The position numbers were made by a program, and so were the translations under genes. Below the pieces are notes generated by a model. That model was not told where the DNA came from, did not search any database, and saw nothing but the letters and a program-made list of their open reading frames with translations. From NCBI RefSeq assembly GCF_009765975.1, contig NZ_LMUJ01000032.1, forward strand, positions 265,548 through 329,547: a DNA stretch of 64,000 nucleotides, given 5' to 3'. Source of the stretch: Acidisphaera sp. S103 (GTDB lineage Bacteria > Pseudomonadota > Alphaproteobacteria > Acetobacterales > Acetobacteraceae). Shown here one piece after another: positions 15,018 through 23,637 of the stretch. Positions within the stretch are counted from its first letter, which is position 1; every line of letters begins with the position of its first letter.

Positions 15018-15785
15018 TCAGGAAAAGTCGTGCCTTGGATCAGATGACGGGCCGCCGGCATCCATCCAACGCTCCCATCCCTGGGCGCGTAACAGACAGG
15101 CCGGACAGGTCCCGCAGCCGAATCCCCAGGCGTGACGATTGGTGCGGTCGCCCAAATAGCAGGTATGGGTGCGTTCGCGAATGACCTCCACGAGAGGCTG
15201 TCCGCCGAGGTCGAACGCCAACGCCCAGGTCGCGGCCTTGTCCCGCCACATCAGCGGCGTCTCCAGCACGAAGCGGCGCTGCATCCCCAGGTTCAGCGCG
15301 AGTTGCATCGCCTTGACCGTGTCGTCACGGCAATCGGGGTAGCCGGAGTAGTCGGTCTCGCACACGCCGGTGACGATGCGGCGCAGGCCGCGGCGATAGG
15401 CAATGGCGGCGGCACAGGTCAGGAACAGCAGGTTGCGGCCCGGGACGAAGGTGTTGGGCAGACCGCCTTGGTCCATCTCGATCGCGATGTCTGCGGTCAT
15501 CGCGGTTTGACCGAGACCGGCGATCGTCGCGGTCAGGTCGACGATGTGATCGACGCCAAGGCGCGGTGAGGCAAGGGCCTGACGGACGGGCTCACGGCAG
15601 TCCATCTCCACACCGTGACGTTGGCCGTAGTGGAAGCCGACGGTTTCGACGTGGGAGTAGCGGGTCAGTGCCCAGGCAAGGCAGGTGGAAGAATCCTGTC
15701 CGCCGGAGAAAAGCACCAGGGCAGAATCCTCGACCCGATCCGTCTTCACCGCGACGGGCGTTCGCGTGGGCAGGCCATGGCGCAT
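15018..15785 (-). CDS. queC: 7-cyano-7-deazaguanine synthase (QueC)
   Basis: ATP-dependent enzyme that converts 7-carboxy-7-deazaguanine to preQ0 in queuosine synthesis. It has the PP-loop [12 protein letters not shown] near the N-terminus and the C-terminal zinc-binding cluster [10 protein letters not shown]. Total length of 255 residues is near normal, slightly long. Two adjacent ATG codons exist; 15785 is chosen because the purine run AGGGGG is seven bases upstream. It diverges from the MoeB/ThiF-like gene with only ~48 bases between starts. Other queuosine genes (queD, queE, queF) are not in the window. Confidence 0.93.
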
Positions 15786-15833
15786 CATCTGTCCCCCTGT
15801 CATCTGCCGGCGTGTCATCCTATCATCAGAAGC

Positions 15834-16652
15834 ATGGACGTCGATTTCACGGAAGACGAAATCCAGCGCTACTCCCGCCACATCCTGTTGCAGGAGGTCG
15901 GTGGCATCGGCCAGGCGAAGCTGAAAGCGGCGCGGGTGCTGGTGGTGGGCGCGGGCGGGCTGGGCTCGCCGCTGATGCTGTATCTGGCGGCGGCTGGGAT
16001 CGGGACGATCGGCGTGGTCGATGACGACGTGGTCGATCTGTCCAATCTGCAACGGCAGGTCGCACACACGACCGACCGCATTGGAACCGCCAAGGTCGCC
16101 TCCGCCGCTCGGGCTGCGACGGCGATCAACCCTGATCTGCGCGTGGAGGCGTACGAAACGCGGCTGAGCGCAGACAACGCCCTGGACCTGATCGGTCGCT
16201 ACGACATCGTGTGCGACGGCACCGACAATTTCGACACGCGCTTTCTGGTGGCCGACGCCTGTGCGCTGGCGAAGCGGACGCTGGTATCCGCCGCCGTGCT
16301 GCGGTTCGACGGCCAGCTTTCGGTCTTCAAGCCGCATGAAGGCGGCCCATGCTACCGCTGCTTGTATCCGGAGCCTCCGCCGGCGGGCATGGTGCCGAGT
16401 TGCAGCGAGGCCGGGGTGCTGGGCGCGGTGACCGGGGTCATGGGCACGTTGCAGGCAACCGAGGTGCTGAAGGAAATCCTGGGGATCGGCGAGACGCTGT
16501 CCGGGCGGCTGCTGGTTTGGGATGCGTTGGCGACTCGATTCCGGACCATCAAGCTGCGACCTGACCCGACCTGTGCCCTGTGCGGGCCGGATGCGACGAT
16601 CAAGGACCTGAGTGCGCACGGCATCCCGGAAGGACCGGCCTGTGCCATCTGA
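15834..16652 (+). CDS. MoeB/ThiF-type sulfur-carrier adenylyltransferase
   Basis: E1-like enzyme that adenylates the C-terminus of a ubiquitin-like sulfur carrier (MoaD or ThiS). The nucleotide-binding loop [25 protein letters not shown] and the CDGTDNF strand are intact. The structural zinc cysteines appear in CYRCLY and CALCG. Length (272) is typical of MoeB/HesA. Whether it serves molybdopterin or thiamine cannot be decided from sequence; the adjacent DsrE-like gene supports a sulfur-transfer role. Confidence 0.88.
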
Positions 16653-17866: not shown

Positions 17867-18052
17867 TCGGTGCGACCTTGTGGCGGCCATGCTGGAAACG
17901 ATTTTTTCGAAATTAACGGTCTTTCACGGAAAAATGCCGTAATGAAACGCAAAACTACCTGTCGCGTGGCTACCCTGATCCGAGCCTAAATACCAGACTG
18001 CGATCGTTAGCCCAGCCAAACGCCGGGTTCGTTCGCAGAAGGCAGAAAAGCA

Positions 18053-18523
18053 ATGAATATGATCGCTTCCAGGCCTCTAACTCAGGATCACGACTTTCCA
18101 GGCACGATGACCGTGGCGCTGCAGGGTGTCGTCGTCATCGTCAGTGACGATCCGGGGACGATCGGGAAGGTCGCGCCGGTCTGTGAATTCCTTGAACTGC
18201 GTGTGGAAGTCGTTTCGGCCGGCGTGGACTTGACCCAGGCTCTGCGGGAGCATCGCCCGATGGCGGTGATCAGCGATGTGGACGGCGAGGAGCAGGATGG
18301 TTTTCACACCATGAAGGTGATCGCGCGTTACAACCGCGACCTGCCGATCATGCTGCTGACGGGCGGCGACTCGGTGCTGATGGGCGCCGCGGACGCGGTG
18401 CAGGATATGTGGGGCCTTACGTCGGTCACCCGCACGAGTGGTTTTCCCATGGCGGGCCAGCTTGTCGCTTTTCTGTTCGGCGCCGGCCGGCGGACCGGCG
18501 GCATGCGGCTGGTGCCGATCTGA
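18053..18523 (+). CDS. Response-regulator receiver-like protein
   Basis: Stand-alone receiver-like domain of 156 residues. The paired acidic residues (VSDDP), the phospho-acceptor strand AVISDVDG and LLTGGD (the Thr position) follow the CheY order, although the match is loose and the lysine loop is not obvious (SVTRTSG). No output domain is present. It converges on the DUF6065-like gene with a 21-base gap. A 185-base AT-rich region upstream is likely to hold its promoter. Its partner kinase is not apparent. Confidence 0.6.
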   Translation: MNMIASRPLTQDHDFPGTMTVALQGVVVIVSDDPGTIGKVAPVCEFLELRVEVVSAGVDLTQALREHRPMAVISDVDGEEQDGFHTMKVIARYNRDLPIMLLTGGDSVLMGAADAVQDMWGLTSVTRTSGFPMAGQLVAFLFGAGRRTGGMRLVPI

Positions 18524-18544
18524 TACCGGTCCATTTGGCGGCTG

Positions 18545-19327
18545 TTATCCGGTCGCTGCTTCTTGCTGCCGGCTGCATTGATGCCGCGTCCTGCGCGTGG
18601 TTGTCGCATAGGCACCGAATGAGCGGTTCGGCCGGCTGTTCGGCTCTACGATCGACGCGTGATAAGCATCCCAATGCTCATCCGTCAGTTCGGAAGGCCC
18701 CGGCGTGACGTCCATCCGGTTGAGCGTGTCGTTGCTGTAGCTGTGGCGCGGCACTGGTTGGGCCTGGACCAGCGGAAAATCGGCGCGCAGGCGAATCGGC
18801 ATGTGGCTGCGGGTGAATCGCATGTTGGTGAACAGGGGACCGAACCAGCGGTCCGTTTCGACAATGCCCTCGAACAGGCAAAGCCCGCCGACCTGGGGCA
18901 TGTTGGCGGGAGATCGCACGAGCAGATGCCAATCCGGCGCGGTCTGCGCGATCAATCCGGTCCAAAGTTGCAAGGTTCCAGGCTCGGGCAATGCCGTTAG
19001 AAACGGTGGCGAGCAGCCCTTCAGAGTCTCGGGCGCCAAGGAATCGAATTCCGCCGCGTAGTCGGGAAGCTGTGCCGAAGGCAGCAGCGGCATCCAGTCT
19101 GGTGCGGCGTCGCAGCGCCAGAATACATCAGAACCGTCCCAGAGCAGCTCGAGGTCGATGGGTGGAAACAGCCACCATCCGAACGCGGTAGCGCTGGTCA
19201 GCGCCTCACAATACCGCACGGCTCTTACTGGCAGGGTGCCGCACGCGGATCGGTCTGCCCGCATAGGCGCCCTGCCGTGGCTGGTGAGTTGATAAAAGCG
19301 GACGATGGGATCGCTGCTGCCGGTCAT
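18545..19327 (-). CDS. DUF6065-like protein
   Basis: 260-residue protein of unknown function that I match to the DUF6065 group. Family-like features are a central FGWWLFPPIDLELLWDG and the block LLVRSPANMPQVGGL followed by LFEGIVETDRWF and MRFTR. The C-terminal ~40 residues are basic and look disordered. There is no signal peptide or membrane segment, so it is cytosolic. It lies downstream of a short peptide gene with two 18-residue repeats on the same strand, separated by a strong hairpin, so it may act on that peptide. That link is inference; no catalytic motif is recognisable. Confidence 0.7.
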   Translation of the reverse strand: MTGSSDPIVRFYQLTSHGRAPMRADRSACGTLPVRAVRYCEALTSATAFGWWLFPPIDLELLWDGSDVFWRCDAAPDWMPLLPSAQLPDYAAEFDSLAPETLKGCSPPFLTALPEPGTLQLWTGLIAQTAPDWHLLVRSPANMPQVGGLCLFEGIVETDRWFGPLFTNMRFTRSHMPIRLRADFPLVQAQPVPRHSYSNDTLNRMDVTPGPSELTDEHWDAYHASIVEPNSRPNRSFGAYATTTRRTRHQCSRQQEAATG

Positions 19328-19462
19328 GATAAGGGCTACCTTTGCGGCGGGAGGAAGGCCCCCCAGGGCCGAAATCGGCGTCGCGGTGGCCTGCTTCGAA
19401 CATGAGGCAGGCCTGAAGGCGGCGCTACGCCTGGATTTCCTTGTGCATCAAATACGCACATT

Positions 19463-19498
19463 CGTCCGTGGCACGACGAGATCGACGTGCCACGGACG
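19463..19498. terminator. 13-bp perfect hairpin between peptide gene and DUF6065-like gene
   Basis: CGTCCGTGGCACG (19463-19475) and CGTGCCACGGACG (19486-19498) are perfect inverted arms around a 10-base loop. On the minus strand the hairpin follows the peptide stop by about 24 bases. No clear U-run follows, so it may be an attenuator or a 3-prime stabiliser rather than a full terminator. It would allow more peptide than downstream protein to be made. Confidence 0.55.
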
Positions 19499-19521
19499 TG
19501 TCGCCGCGATCGGTTATCCGA

Positions 19522-19686
19522 TCAGGCACCCAGGATCGGCAGGCGGTAGCCGCCGCCCAGGCGGATCTTGCCGGCGTCAGCGGTGTTCGCTGGCAGACGG
19601 TAGCCGCCACCCAGGCGAATCTTGCCTGCGTCGGCGGTGGAAGCTGACGTAACGACTTCGGCGGCGCTTTTGCTGTAAACCAACAT
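19522..19686 (-). CDS. Tandem-repeat small peptide, candidate RiPP precursor
   Basis: 54-residue peptide. A 16-residue leader-like N-terminus (MLVYSKSAAEVVTSAS) is followed by two tandem 18-residue units, each holding TADAGKIRLGGGYRLP and differing only at the last two residues. The DNA repeats have a 54-base period and differ at several third positions, so the protein sequence is being conserved. ATG 19686 is chosen over 19713 because AAGGA lies seven bases upstream. Repeated core segments behind a short leader are typical of ribosomally made, modified peptides. No known modifying enzyme class is nearby; the DUF6065-like gene is the only close partner. Confidence 0.65.
   Translation of the reverse strand: MLVYSKSAAEVVTSASTADAGKIRLGGGYRLPANTADAGKIRLGGGYRLPILGA
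19532..19639 (-). repeat. Two tandem 54-bp coding repeats
   Basis: In-frame duplication within the small peptide gene, each copy 54 bases (18 codons). The copies share the TADAGKIRLGGGYRLP protein core but differ by several silent bases (for example GGCAGGCGGTAG against GGCAGACGGTAG on the plus strand). They are therefore not a fresh duplication, and the repeat appears maintained. Confidence 0.85.
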
Positions 19687-19721
19687 TCGGATTTCCTTGC
19701 CTTGATGAAACACGCCAACAG

Positions 19722-19758
19722 GATCAGGGCAGTCAGCCCGTGGCCGACCGCCCTGATC
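19722..19758 (-). promoter_or_regulatory. Leader hairpin upstream of the peptide gene
   Basis: GATCAGGGC (19722-19730) and GCCCTGATC (19750-19758) form a perfect 9-bp stem with a 19-base loop, 36 bases before the peptide ATG on the minus strand. It lies in the presumed untranslated leader and could be an operator or an RNA control element. The function is not known. Confidence 0.4.
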
Positions 19759-19881
19759 GAAATCGTCTCGATAATCGTTCCTAAAACTTACAGGACCCTA
19801 GGTATCGCACGCCTTTTCGAAGTCATGTTGAAGCGATACAGCCCTTGGGATTCAAGACATAGCTGTTCCGTTGACGCGCTG

Positions 19882-19910
19882 AAGTTAGCTGGATCATAAG
19901 CCGTTGTCAA
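19882..19910 (-). promoter_or_regulatory. Candidate sigma70-type promoter for the peptide gene
   Basis: On the minus strand a consensus -35 TTGACA (19910-19905) is followed after 17 bases by TAACTT (19887-19882), a weak -10. It would give a leader of about 190 bases before the peptide ATG. The surrounding 19,770-19,960 stretch is unusually AT-rich for this window. I see no gene in 19687-20119. Confidence 0.4.
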
Positions 19911-20096
19911 GCTATATATTCCTAATATGACGCTTTTCCATGAAATTAGTCCTTTGCGAATGAAGGAGGGTTCCGGATTGGGCACAAATCGCACCCTCCG
20001 CGGCAGCTTTCGCCACGGGGGGTCTGATCACGGCCGTGGGTTCGGATGAGACTCGCTCCTCGCGACGATAATCCGGCCAATTGGCGAGGGGGCTGC

Positions 20097-20113
20097 ATCC
20101 CGCCCGGCGGGAT
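20097..20113 (-). terminator. GC-rich hairpin after the YeiH-like gene
   Basis: ATCCCGC (20097-20103) and GCGGGAT (20107-20113) form a 7-bp stem with a 3-base loop. It starts six bases past the stop codon of the minus-strand transporter gene. There is no T-run, so factor-independent termination is uncertain. Confidence 0.35.
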
Positions 20114-20119
20114 CACGTT

Positions 20120-21151
20120 CTACAGCACGTGGGTCCAGCTCTGCACGGCGAGGCTCGACGCGGCGACCACGAACCAGGTTACCAGGCCCAGAACGAGTGG
20201 CCGGCTGCCGGCGCCGACGAAGGCGCGCCAATGGCCTTGCAGTCCGACAGCAGCCAAGGCGACGACCATCACGACACGGCCCAGCATCTGCACCTCCATC
20301 GCGTGCGAACCGATCAGGCCAGCGGTGTTGGCCGCCGCCGCGAGCACGAACAAGATGATGAAGGCCGGCACCGCGGCGTAGACGCGCCTGGCCAGCGACT
20401 GCGAGGCGGCGTTCTCATCCTTCGCCAGCAGGGGCATTGCCAGACCGAAGCCCAGCACCAGCGGAATGATCATTGTCGTGCGGGTCAGTTTGACGATCGT
20501 CGCGATGGTGCCCGCTGCCTGGCTGAAGGCGAACCCGGCGGCGACCACGGCCGAGGTGTCATTGATCGCGGTCCCGGCCCAAATCCCGAAGCCGTTGTCG
20601 CTGAGGCGAAGCAGGTGGCCCAGCGCCGGGAAGGTGAACACGGCGACCATGTTGAAGAAGAACACGACAGTGATCGAATACGCGATCTCCTCGGCTTTCG
20701 CGCGGATCACCGGCGCGAGGGCAGCGATGGCCGACCCGCCGCAGATCGTAGTGCCGATGCCGATCAGGCAACGCATCCGCCAGTCGATACCGAGCGATTT
20801 GCCCAGCCACAAGGCGCAGAGGAGGCCCGACGTCATGGTGACCGCGAGCAGCGGTAATGATCCGAGGCCGGTTCTGGCGATGTCGCCGAGGTTGAGGCTG
20901 GCACCCAGCAGGATGATGCCACCCTTCAGGCACAGCTTGCTGGTTTCTGAAATCCCCAGGGATTTTTGCCGTGCGATGGATGGGGCCGCGTTCGCGAGCA
21001 ACACGCCGATGGCGATCGCGAACAAAGGGGCACCGATCAGCGGTGCAAAGGATCCGCCGACTTCGGCCAGCGCGGCGATACAAATGCATAGGAGCAGGCC
21101 AAGACCGCGACGCAACCACGCCTGTGTCGCTATCTTGGATTGCGTCTGCAT
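20120..21151 (-). CDS. YeiH/UPF0324 family membrane transporter
   Basis: Integral membrane protein of 343 residues with about ten hydrophobic helices, family UPF0324 (Cons_hypoth698, YeiH). Members are called putative sulfate or sulfite exporters; the true substrate is unsettled. Family marks include GIGTTICGGSAIAALAPVI and FGIWAGTAINDTSAVVAAG. The ATG at 21151 has AAGG seven bases upstream, whereas the longer GTG start at 21187 has no ribosome-binding site. It is on the same strand as the peptide/DUF6065 genes, but 430 bases separate them. Confidence 0.88.
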   Translation of the reverse strand: MQTQSKIATQAWLRRGLGLLLCICIAALAEVGGSFAPLIGAPLFAIAIGVLLANAAPSIARQKSLGISETSKLCLKGGIILLGASLNLGDIARTGLGSLPLLAVTMTSGLLCALWLGKSLGIDWRMRCLIGIGTTICGGSAIAALAPVIRAKAEEIAYSITVVFFFNMVAVFTFPALGHLLRLSDNGFGIWAGTAINDTSAVVAAGFAFSQAAGTIATIVKLTRTTMIIPLVLGFGLAMPLLAKDENAASQSLARRVYAAVPAFIILFVLAAAANTAGLIGSHAMEVQMLGRVVMVVALAAVGLQGHWRAFVGAGSRPLVLGLVTWFVVAASSLAVQSWTHVL

Positions 21152-21534
21152 CGTCAGGCCTTGAACCGCCACTTCATTCTCCGTCACTTAGCGACGCGAG
21201 ATATTGGCGTATGAACGAACATCTGTCACCAATCAGACGCCGTATAAAAAATTCTCGCGAATTAGCGGGTAAGGGCAGAAAGTTTTAGCCAATTCATTCA
21301 AACGAGATTCATCATTTTTCACGATTTCGTGATGTTTCAGCGCGAGGAGTATTGCTGTTTGTCGCGTAATTCAGTACGTATCGATACAATACTCCCGTTC
21401 AAGTTGTGGAAGCTCAATGAATTTAGCAGTCGCCTGAGAAGGTTGTCGCCATTCGCCGGCAACCCTCACGCTCCCAAGACACGCCGGCGGCTCCGGATCA
21501 TGCGGCCACGCTCCGCCTGCGCCTCTTCGGTCAC
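21152..21534. other. Intergenic region upstream of the BTAD regulator
   Basis: About 380 bases. The left part is AT-rich and probably contains divergent promoters for the YeiH-like gene and the regulator. From 21427 to 21534 the frame of the downstream regulator stays open and reads like the missing first strand of its domain (LRLRLFGH just before the ATG), yet it contains no ATG, GTG or TTG. No separate gene is apparent. Confidence 0.5.
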
Positions 21535-23637
21535 ATGGCGGTGGACGATTCGAAGGGCCGAACCTATCTGCCGCGGACACGAAAAACCCGAGCCCTTCTG
21601 GCCGTCCTGGCAATGGCGAGCCCAAGGCCGGTGCTGCGCCAGCAATTGGCCTCATTGCTTTGGAGCCGCCGCGAGCAGGAGCAGGCCCGTGGCTCCCTGC
21701 GGCAGAGCGTGCATGAGCTGCAGGACGCGCTGGGTCCGGCATGGAGCCATCTGTTCGTCACCGATCGACATTATCTGTCACTTCGCGGCGCAGCCATGGA
21801 GATCGATGTCCTGTCGCTGGCGCAGCCCGCCGCGATCTCGGTGGAAATCCTCGGTCAGTTCGAGGATGTGCTGCTGGAGGACCTCAACGGTCTCGACCCC
21901 GCATTCGACCGCTGGCTGGATGATGAGCGAGCCAGGTTTCGGCGGATCGGCCGGGCGATCGGCGAAAGCCTGCTGGCCAAATGTGAGGATCCGATCGCCG
22001 CGATCGGTGCGGCCGAACAGTTGTTGGCCATCGATCGAACGCATGAGGGGGCGTGGCGCACGATCATGCGCAGCCATGCCGAACGCGGCGACCTGGGGGC
22101 GGCGGCGACGTCCTATGAGCGCTGTCGCGGCATCCTGGCCGAGAATTTGGATGGCCGTCCTTCGCCCGAAACCGAGGATCTGATCGGGCGCATTCGTGCG
22201 CAGGCCAGTGCGGGGCGGCTTTCGGGCCAGCCCAATCCCGGTCGCGGCATGGCGGAAGACCAGGCCTTCTACACGCCACCTCGGCCCACTCCCCGCCGCG
22301 ACAGATCGACGTTGCGCCTGCGCGTGGCGCCCTTGCGGACGATTGGCACAGAGCATGATGACGGGCTGGCCCTGGGGTTGGCCGAGGAAATCTCCGCCGG
22401 TCTGTCACGATTCCGTTGGATATCATGCGTGCCCGGCAGCTTCTGGCCAGGCATGCCGGCCGGTGGCGATGCTTCAGCGGGCGGCCTGGTCGCGTTGGAA
22501 GCGGACCTTGTCCTGGACGGCACAATTCAATATGGCGCCGGCCGGGTTCGGATCATCGTCCGGCTGATCGACATGCGGGCGGATGGAGAGATCGCCTGGG
22601 CCGGGCGGTTCGATCGTTCGATAGCCGATCCGCTGAGCATGCAGGACGAGTTGGGGGCCGCGATCGTCGCCCAGGTCGATCCCGAGTTGATGAAGCATGA
22701 GGGTCGGCGAACCGCGGGCGGACGATTGCATGATATGACGGCGCAGGACCTGTTGTTGCAGGCTCTGCCCGCGCTCTATCGGCTGGAACGGGTCGGCTAC
22801 GTCGATGCCCGCCGTTTGCTGGAGGCTTCGCTGCGCGTGGACCCAGGCAATTCGGTGGCGCATGGATGGCTGGCCTATTGGAACCTGCTGTATGTCGGGC
22901 AGGGCTGGGCGACCGATCCGGGGGAATCCGCCGCCGAGGCCGCACGTCTGGCGGAACGGGCGGTGATGCTCGATCCGGGGGATGCGCGAGCACTGACCTT
23001 GGCGGGGCATGTGCGCGGCTTCCTGGGTAAACACCCGGAAGAGGCTAGCGCCCTGCACGAACGGGCCATCGCGCTCAATCCCAACCTGGCGATCGCGTGG
23101 TGTTTCTCCGGCCTTGCGCATTTTTACATGGGCCGTCACGAAGAAGCGCTGCGGCGTATCAACCAGGCGATCCACCTGTCGCCGTCCGATCCGCATGTTT
23201 TCTTTTTCGACATGGCCCTGATCATGCCGCACCTGATGCGCGGCGATTGCGCGAGCGCGGTCGAAGCCGGGCGGCGGGCGATCGAACTCAATCCATTATT
23301 TTCGTCGGCATACAAAGGATATCTTGCCGCCCTGGGGTGGATACGTCGCCCGCGTGAGGCGCGGGAGGTGCTGGACCGGTTGCTGGCCCTTGAGCCAGGC
23401 TTTTCGATCGAGGCGGCGGTGGTGCGGTCGCCGCTGAAGCGTCCCGAGGATATTGCCCGCTATGCCGAAGGTCTCCGGCTGGCGGGGCTGCGCGAGCGAA
23501 ACGGACCGCTGGGCACGGCGACCCTGGCGATCGAGCATTCTGTCATTGATCTTGTGGTTGAGGCACCGCACAGTCCCGTTACGATGCTGGATGGGTCGTA
23601 TAGCAGGGGAAAACTGGGAAATGACACGAATTGGTAG
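21535..23637 (+). CDS. BTAD/winged-helix transcriptional regulator with TolB-like and TPR domains
   Basis: Large one-component regulator of 700 residues. Residues ~1-90 form an OmpR/SARP-like winged helix (RTRKTRALLAVLAM...LASLLWSRREQEQARGSLRQ). About 95-220 is the BTAD helical domain (ERGDLGAAATSYERC). About 260-400 resembles the TolB-N/FlgO-like module found in adenylate-cyclase relatives, and about 420-650 are TPR helices. No cyclase or kinase domain is present. The coding frame stays open upstream with domain-like sequence, but 21535 is the only ordinary start. It overlaps the next gene by 17 bases. Confidence 0.82.
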   Translation: MAVDDSKGRTYLPRTRKTRALLAVLAMASPRPVLRQQLASLLWSRREQEQARGSLRQSVHELQDALGPAWSHLFVTDRHYLSLRGAAMEIDVLSLAQPAAISVEILGQFEDVLLEDLNGLDPAFDRWLDDERARFRRIGRAIGESLLAKCEDPIAAIGAAEQLLAIDRTHEGAWRTIMRSHAERGDLGAAATSYERCRGILAENLDGRPSPETEDLIGRIRAQASAGRLSGQPNPGRGMAEDQAFYTPPRPTPRRDRSTLRLRVAPLRTIGTEHDDGLALGLAEEISAGLSRFRWISCVPGSFWPGMPAGGDASAGGLVALEADLVLDGTIQYGAGRVRIIVRLIDMRADGEIAWAGRFDRSIADPLSMQDELGAAIVAQVDPELMKHEGRRTAGGRLHDMTAQDLLLQALPALYRLERVGYVDARRLLEASLRVDPGNSVAHGWLAYWNLLYVGQGWATDPGESAAEAARLAERAVMLDPGDARALTLAGHVRGFLGKHPEEASALHERAIALNPNLAIAWCFSGLAHFYMGRHEEALRRINQAIHLSPSDPHVFFFDMALIMPHLMRGDCASAVEAGRRAIELNPLFSSAYKGYLAALGWIRRPREAREVLDRLLALEPGFSIEAAVVRSPLKRPEDIARYAEGLRLAGLRERNGPLGTATLAIEHSVIDLVVEAPHSPVTMLDGSYSRGKLGNDTNW

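Follow-up and report, generated by a model that had tools for sequence, protein, structure and literature searches.

This locus raises the question of whether a short gene encoding repeated peptide cores and the DUF6065 gene that follows it form a peptide-producing pair, and what DUF6065 might do in it. The pair lies in a 64,000-nucleotide stretch of Acidisphaera sp. S103 (hereafter the window), within contig C81 of an 8.37 Mb genome, and the nearest named relatives by its DUF6065 protein belong to Rhodopila (Acetobacteraceae). An earlier note on this DNA had likened the pair to a multi-core RiPP precursor and its partner. Multi-core RiPP precursors include those of graspetides, cyanobactins and burpitides, and most RiPPs carry a conserved leader that is recognised by the enzyme, although exceptions exist.

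The peptide gene, the hairpin and their surroundings in the window

The peptide gene occupies 19522..19686 on the minus strand and is recognised by its open frame and by the retention of its family in relatives. Its ATG frame (19686..19522) translates to MLVYSKSAAEVVTSASTADAGKIRLGGGYRLPANTADAGKIRLGGGYRLPILGA, a peptide of 54 aa with two TADAGKIRLGGGYRLP cores. A direct-repeat search delimited two units of 54 nt (18 aa) on the same strand, unit 1 at 19592..19645 and unit 2 at 19538..19591, with a DNA identity of 85%. As the earlier note had described, the two 18-residue units share the same 16-residue core and differ silently: we counted 6 synonymous differences (14.3 sites) versus 0 nonsynonymous ones (33.7 sites).

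The DUF6065 gene follows on the minus strand at 18545..19327. It encodes a protein of 260 aa that matches PF19541 with an E value of 1.4e-13 and 51.3 bits (gathering cut-off 26.6), and its fold is predicted by AlphaFold2 and Foldseek to be dUTPase-like (beta-clip). Between the peptide stop codon and this gene an inverted repeat forms a strong hairpin (19463..19498, minus strand), with arms of 17 nt at 19463-19479 and 19482-19498. For the 86 nt surrounding it, the folding energy is -46.8 kcal/mol (z -5.75), and 0 of 200 shuffles gave a value as low. The described order of hairpin and DUF6065 gene on one strand is confirmed. Across 86 related loci, a tally that still includes L054, which was scored on a chance YeiH match, the hairpin after the peptide gene beat all 20 shuffles in 51, where it started at a median of 13 nt past the peptide stop. 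Two identities for the hairpin were rejected. A T-rich tail, as in a classical terminator, followed only 7 of the 51 significant hairpins, and no Rfam family matched up to E 1 when 18000-21500 of the window was scanned.

Directly upstream on the same strand lies a gene for a YeiH-family membrane protein of the putative sulfate exporter family (20120..21187, minus strand; PF03601, E 4.9e-72), which may be functionally linked to the pair. Beyond it, a divergent gene (21535..23637, plus strand) encodes a regulator with BTAD (E 3e-8) and TPR (above cut-off) matches and a weak winged-helix match, Trans_reg_C at 21.5 bits being under its cut-off of 26.2. SARPs control secondary-metabolite clusters, and this regulator resembles SARP-type BTAD regulators in combining BTAD and TPR with a weak winged helix but differs in being a Gram-negative TPR form. 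Downstream and convergent, a stand-alone response-regulator receiver (18053..18523, plus strand; PF00072, E 5e-8) might at most have some role in the module.

Pfam scans of six neighbours, covering 15.6-24.7 kb of the window, found no known RiPP modifying enzyme (radical SAM, YcaO, LanM/LanB, ATP-grasp, MNIO etc.), a ThiF-family gene aside. This gene (PF00899, window 15615-16652, plus strand), about 2 kb beyond DUF6065, has the appearance of a housekeeping gene; E1-like enzymes are present in some peptide pathways. The earlier remark that no protease lies near holds for the scanned window neighbours but not for the same genome, whose array-type sister locus stands beside tldD.

Two other identities of the module were considered and rejected. 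A known anti-phage defence system was not supported, as PADLOC models returned 0 families for the peptide and DUF6065 and a weak TPR match only for the regulator. A phage origin was not supported either, since neither the window DUF6065 nor a canonical one matched any of 50,697 phage records. The DUF6065 subfamily described below is present on 12 IMG/VR viral contigs, which may be explained by adjoining genes: terminase-like and portal-like genes, named by their look and belonging to two protein clusters of 16 loci each, lie downstream of the pair in some loci (e.g. L111, L180).

Recurrence of the pair and of its neighbours

All 33 genomes searched from the genus (Rhodopila) carry DUF6065 above the cut-off. 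Their 79 entries, after two pieces were merged, comprise 8 canonical proteins above 100 bits, 68 divergent ones at 27-50 bits and 3 below the cut-off (<27 bits); the first and last groups were excluded from the genus set of 68, the divergent subfamily to which the window gene belongs. Same-strand repeat peptides lie upstream of these divergent genes, with unit lengths, among those listed, of 17 (TTDASKVRLGGYAPTLA), 18 (TADAGKIRLGGGYRLPxx), 22, 23 and other residue numbers. Cores were detected with a position-specific score derived from 81 units of the genus, which had been collected with a pattern that demands Gly at position 10 and either D, S or N at position 3. By this score, with chance matches in YeiH barred, a core was found for 54 of the 68 subfamily loci. 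Inspection of the other 14 by eye revealed a different repeat upstream in 9, only the last unit of an array at a contig start in 1 (G000:C81), contig ends in 2, a core downstream in 1 and a broken gene in 1.

The score was then applied to loci from a profile search of genome contigs, in which 80 of 220 relatives were retained. Loci counted as held-out if they were not labelled Rhodopila and their protein was not identical to one in the 33 genus genomes. Where at least 700 nt of upstream sequence was available, a core peptide lay upstream on the same strand within 1.7 kb at 37 of 41 held-out loci, and at 33 of 34 Rhodopila/training loci. In control stretches the counts were 0/75 for the opposite strand, 2/82 for the downstream side, where the match at L121 is a true core, and 0/61 for the region 1.7-3.4 kb upstream. 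When the score was made stricter, 35/41 held-out loci still had a core and the controls were 0/75, 1/82 and 0/61. Four held-out loci (L128, L167, L168, L175) had no scored core within reach. Because the pair recurs in relatives at such rates, its association is far from chance. The earlier note had set a test in advance, namely that DUF6065 homologues should have adjacent repeat peptides and that the peptide frame should be kept in relatives, and both expectations were borne out, the latter with a copy number varying from 1 to 18 or more.

Outside Acetobacteraceae, repeat peptides accompany all 4 of 4 full-length subfamily loci (L194-L197), with the tails GNMSPAF in three and GMMAPAF in one, and the pair is also found on two Rhizobium plasmids. 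However, the association does not extend to canonical-type (partial) DUF6065 loci, where a core score above 10 was found in 0/25; two of these loci score 6.7 and 7.9 (the threshold elsewhere was 6.5), in long unrelated frames. The earlier link between repeat peptides and DUF6065 is therefore narrowed to one subfamily of the family. This subfamily is common: it is found widely among Acetobacteraceae and more sporadically elsewhere in the Alphaproteobacteria. In Acetobacteraceae its profile has matches in 71 of 200 genomes and 40 of 102 genera, a few of the matches being weak or partial, and in Alphaproteobacteria in 30 of 385 (our own genome, 4 full-length and 25 partial). Across the phylum 12 of 398 match, all partial except our own genome.

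The pairing suggests an undescribed ribosomal peptide family with a dedicated partner protein. Neither DUF6065 nor PF19541 is named in the openly accessible literature that was searched, a body that covers few subscription papers, so that a description elsewhere is possible. The pairing hands DUF6065 a concrete candidate partner that can be tested as two genes. One candidate for a natural peptide-DUF6065 fusion, the sole in-frame case (L055/L102, one gene), crosses a run of N and was discarded.

Peptidase and exporter genes near the pairs (TldD at arrays, MFS, BT1/MFS, YeiH) are recurrent without being universal. A YeiH homologue lies upstream on the same strand in 24/96 loci, a receiver-protein homologue is present in 36/96, and BT1/MFS genes precede the pair in L120, L127 and L130. 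A homologue of the BTAD/TPR regulator occurs in 29 of 40 fully flanked loci and is absent from 11; the whole genome of our strain contains 5 matches to it. Of the 55 regulator matches, 44 lie 0.6-2.8 kb upstream and on the opposite strand, and most others are about 3 kb downstream. At L260, a locus of the separate family f66, one homologue precedes the pair and shares its strand. In Rhizobium sp. SRDI969 the peptide gene is followed by DUF6065 and then by an MFS transporter gene in a single frame, the last two overlapping by 4 nt. WSM4643 has a peptide with the same three units as SRDI969, then DUF6065 and a transporter in two pieces. These Rhizobium plasmid loci (L253, L256) form an operon-like row beside tartrate and succinate-semialdehyde dehydrogenase genes.

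A second system of the array type is present beside tldD in our own genome, outside the window (G000:C99 1-1059, L039, and G000:C81 1-976, L040). Contig C99 opens with an 18-unit array of 17-residue units that runs off the contig end, and contig C81 opens with the end of an array (KVRMGGFAPTLATVR and a stop codon), behind which lies another DUF6065 gene; the two arrays are probably parts of one array, because the contig ends match. Array-type DUF6065 genes are often found at contig ends, e.g. at L018, L042, L046, L153 and L155. The probable cause is that assemblies break at the tandem array upstream, so that array lengths are underestimated in draft genomes.

Of 12 distinct loci with enough flanking sequence, 8 have the array type immediately behind tldD (10 of 14 rows, two genomes being doubled; L177 comes from a separate listing outside this tally). 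The gene is absent beside the Elioraea-type L150, L156 and L157 and beside L176. When we started instead from tldD, taking the best 30 of 57 tldD genomes with our own included, a peptide lay downstream in 10 of 29 loci with downstream sequence, one per genus. However, tldD is a near-universal housekeeping gene (57/60 genomes), so the adjacency may be old synteny, which is a fair alternative account of it. TldE is the partner of TldD. According to PMC5810440, TldD/E removes the leader of the modified microcin B17 precursor, and the placement of tldD directly upstream of array-type peptide genes offers a parallel to that system. Unlike there, the tldD of the array loci is a housekeeping gene that is not found at the window locus, and cleavage of the peptide is putative.

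The repeated motif and the predicted fold of its partner

The conserved motif of the peptides is [TVI]xDxG[KR][IV]x[LIMF]G[GA]; behind it comes a tail, xRLP or xAPTL, that is specific to the lineage. Among 90 scored peptides, 29 are single-copy, 30 are two-copy and the maximum is 18 scored copies (18 or more), all counts being minima, with 20 rows masked or cut at a contig end. The spacing of copies is mostly 17-31 residues. In 158 distinct cores position 10 is always Gly, in part because the training pattern demands it, and Asp is present at position 3 in 149. In contrast, the segment before the repeats, which the earlier note had read as leader-like, showed no conserved residue at its first or last seven positions in 67 leaders of 3-64 aa; conservation lies in the repeated motif instead.

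The repeat copies are under purifying selection, with a pN/pS between neighbouring copies of 0.187 (60 loci). They also covary with the partner: core and DUF6065 distances gave a Mantel r of 0.64, and tail residues 0.68, with 0/2000 permutations as high, in an analysis of 85 of 91 rows in which shared ancestry contributes to the correlation and remains in it. L054, whose true repeat lies nearer than the chance YeiH match on which it was scored, was excluded from both the Mantel and the pN/pS analyses. Sequence variants of DUF6065 also go together with core types. DUF6065 proteins with FGYY go with an AP-type core in 21/24 cases and those with FGWW with an R-type core in 49/49, while FGWY is mixed (4 AP, 3 R, 1 other). 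Both core types are present in 14 of 33 genus genomes. Very short repeats precede some subfamily genes, of 7 residues (YRTIGGG) or 9 (IYRFGDGGC) among those listed, at L093 (G018:C126), L073 (G003:C71), L065 (G007:C122) and L096 (G021:C64). The motif can thus shrink to a Gly-rich minimum.

On the partner side, 70 of 70 members of the subfamily alignment match PF19541 at E <= 1. C40, G65, R138, D159, R170 and W219, among others, are invariant across the 70 members, and no invariant histidine is found among them. The AlphaFold2 model of the window DUF6065 has a pLDDT of 90.5 and a pTM of 0.81. Foldseek returned 78 PDB matches at E <= 0.001, the best being 3ecy_A, a dUTPase (E 6.8e-6; TM 0.78 by target length, 0.39 by query length). 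Among the 50 PDB matches listed, all except two 6h4c chains are titled dUTPase or a synonym, and the 6h4c title names a repressor. A Foldseek search of BFVD gave uncharacterised phage proteins and dUTPases.

Sequence comparisons did not extend this similarity to homology. No PDB relative was found by sequence up to E 10, PF00692 (dUTPase) gave no match in the window DUF6065 up to E 10, and the subfamily profile reached an hhalign probability of only 0.3 against six dUTPases, for which reason we claim similarity of fold only. The DUF6065 subfamily is thus predicted to have a dUTPase-like fold, which does not imply dUTPase ancestry or activity. DUF6065 also differs from dUTPases in its length (260 aa, as compared to 119-169 aa for the listed chains) and in having a peptide gene as partner. 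A mapping by eye of dUTPase motifs 1-4 onto DUF6065 is put forward as a tentative idea; a further idea is that R..GG[FY] of the peptide may mimic dUTPase motif 5.

A candidate peptide pathway and its rivals

Our preferred reading, which we hold at even odds, is that the locus functions in the manner of a multi-core RiPP pathway, the repeat precursor being matured or bound by DUF6065. A narrower proposal, which we hold more tentatively, is that proteins of the DUF6065 subfamily mature peptides on a dUTPase beta-clip fold and find their signal in the repeated core (D.GK[IV]RLGG) with no leader, which would make a RiPP-like class whose enzyme has a new fold.

In the pathway that we propose, the locus would be a two-gene peptide module. 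The small gene would yield a leader-poor peptide, whose working element would be the motif repeated in 1 to 18 or more copies. DUF6065, with its predicted beta-clip, would recognise each motif copy, the recognition signal sitting in the repeat instead of a leader, and would most likely alter the motif or hold it for maturation. With a signal inside each core, a single precursor would give rise to anything from one to eighteen or more similar products. The hairpin would keep the peptide transcript in likely excess over the DUF6065 transcript. The BTAD-TPR regulator may control expression of the module, the product may be carried by a transporter (YeiH-like, BT1/MFS or MFS), and at array-type loci TldD together with TldE may cleave it into units. 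Binding, modification, cleavage and export, together with the role of the product, are what we infer. A selected, partner-specific motif, a likely transcript excess, a regulator, transporters and a protease together resemble a ribosomal-peptide pathway.

The comparison with multi-core RiPPs, which the earlier note had drawn, holds in part. A small precursor gene with one or more cores stands beside a single partner gene at nearly all held-out (37/41) and Rhodopila/training (33/34) loci, its copy number is variable, a transporter or regulator is often near, and TldD, the BTAD regulator and the hairpin after the precursor gene fit the same picture. However, the part usually conserved in RiPPs, the leader, is not conserved here (67 leaders) and the repeat is; no known RiPP enzyme was found beside the window pair; and the partner has a predicted dUTPase-like fold. 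The dUTPase fold is not known to us as a peptide-modifying one, and DUF6065 falls outside the modifying families of which we are aware. Because modification is a prediction here, the conserved element is not a leader and the partner lies outside those families, we liken the module to a multi-core RiPP without filing it as one. If the peptide is modified, an enzyme fold would, to our knowledge, be newly linked to peptide modification, with the recognition signal in the repeat. The openly accessible literature searched contained nothing that joined 'dUTPase fold' and RiPP, and no matching system appeared among the papers listed when it was queried more broadly.

The main rival, which is possible but which we hold to be doubtful, is that the peptide acts without any covalent change, as a multivalent ligand or scaffold. 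Its motifs would dock on a dUTPase-like DUF6065 oligomer, perhaps as an extra strand or arm, and their number would determine how many copies are brought together or titrated. dUTPases are trimeric, the predicted fold of DUF6065 is dUTPase-like, and 7dlv, a dUTPase complex with Stl, is among the listed matches. It is the motif itself that is conserved and that covaries with DUF6065. Moreover, we recognised no catalytic residues typical of a known class of peptide-modifying enzymes in DUF6065, which has no invariant His, and transporter and protease are missing at some loci. Against these points, a pathway that forms a product accounts better for the Rhizobium operon with its MFS gene, for the TldD at arrays and for the hairpin that follows the peptide gene, and multivalence is not required, because single-copy peptides are common (29/90 scored). 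If the peptide is only bound, the module would be a ligand system built on motif arrays, with a valence that evolves through changes in the number of repeats.

It is unlikely that the arrays are folded structural repeat proteins of the beta-solenoid, adhesin or ice-binding type, with DUF6065 as chaperone or accessory. AlphaFold2 did model the 8-copy array of L163 as a regular beta structure (pLDDT 90.9, pTM 0.84), but the five models span pLDDT 90.9 to 65.5 and no good PDB fold match was obtained (best E 0.7). By its title, PMC11795689 reports that AlphaFold2 gives confident but unrealistic beta-solenoids for repeat proteins, and the L163 model is of the kind thus described as unreliable. A solenoid is further disfavoured by copy number: 59 of the 90 scored peptides contain no more than two copies, which would not suffice to build one. 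These counts are minima, with 20 rows masked or cut.

Slightly more improbable still is a nucleotide or stress accessory, in which DUF6065 would be a dUTPase-like nucleotide binder and the peptide its small regulator or inhibitor. The predicted fold agrees with such a role, and the nearly invariant Arg and Asp/Glu could bind phosphates. However, a true dUTPase gene is already present in 38 of the 40 genomes searched, sequence profiles give no link to dUTPases, and an inhibitor role leaves 1 to 18 or more copies unexplained. Chance or neutral tandem duplication beside an unrelated gene, which has nothing in its favour except that tandem repeats are known to be unstable, is refuted by the core at 37/41 held-out loci versus control rates of 0-2% and by a pN/pS of about 0.19.

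Canonical DUF6065 proteins, such as that of Sinorhizobium medicae pMl3, belong to the same Pfam family PF19541 as the partner of the peptide but differ from it in having a full-length Pfam match (351 bits, as compared to 51 bits for the window protein) and no core at 25 loci. The canonical gene of our own genome (G000:C85:157433-158291) is matched as two pieces that lie in separate open frames, and it is apparently broken. That of S. medicae pMl3 (L254, 4430-7711) starts 9 nt after an autotransporter gene, which is a possible separate lead to the role of the family.
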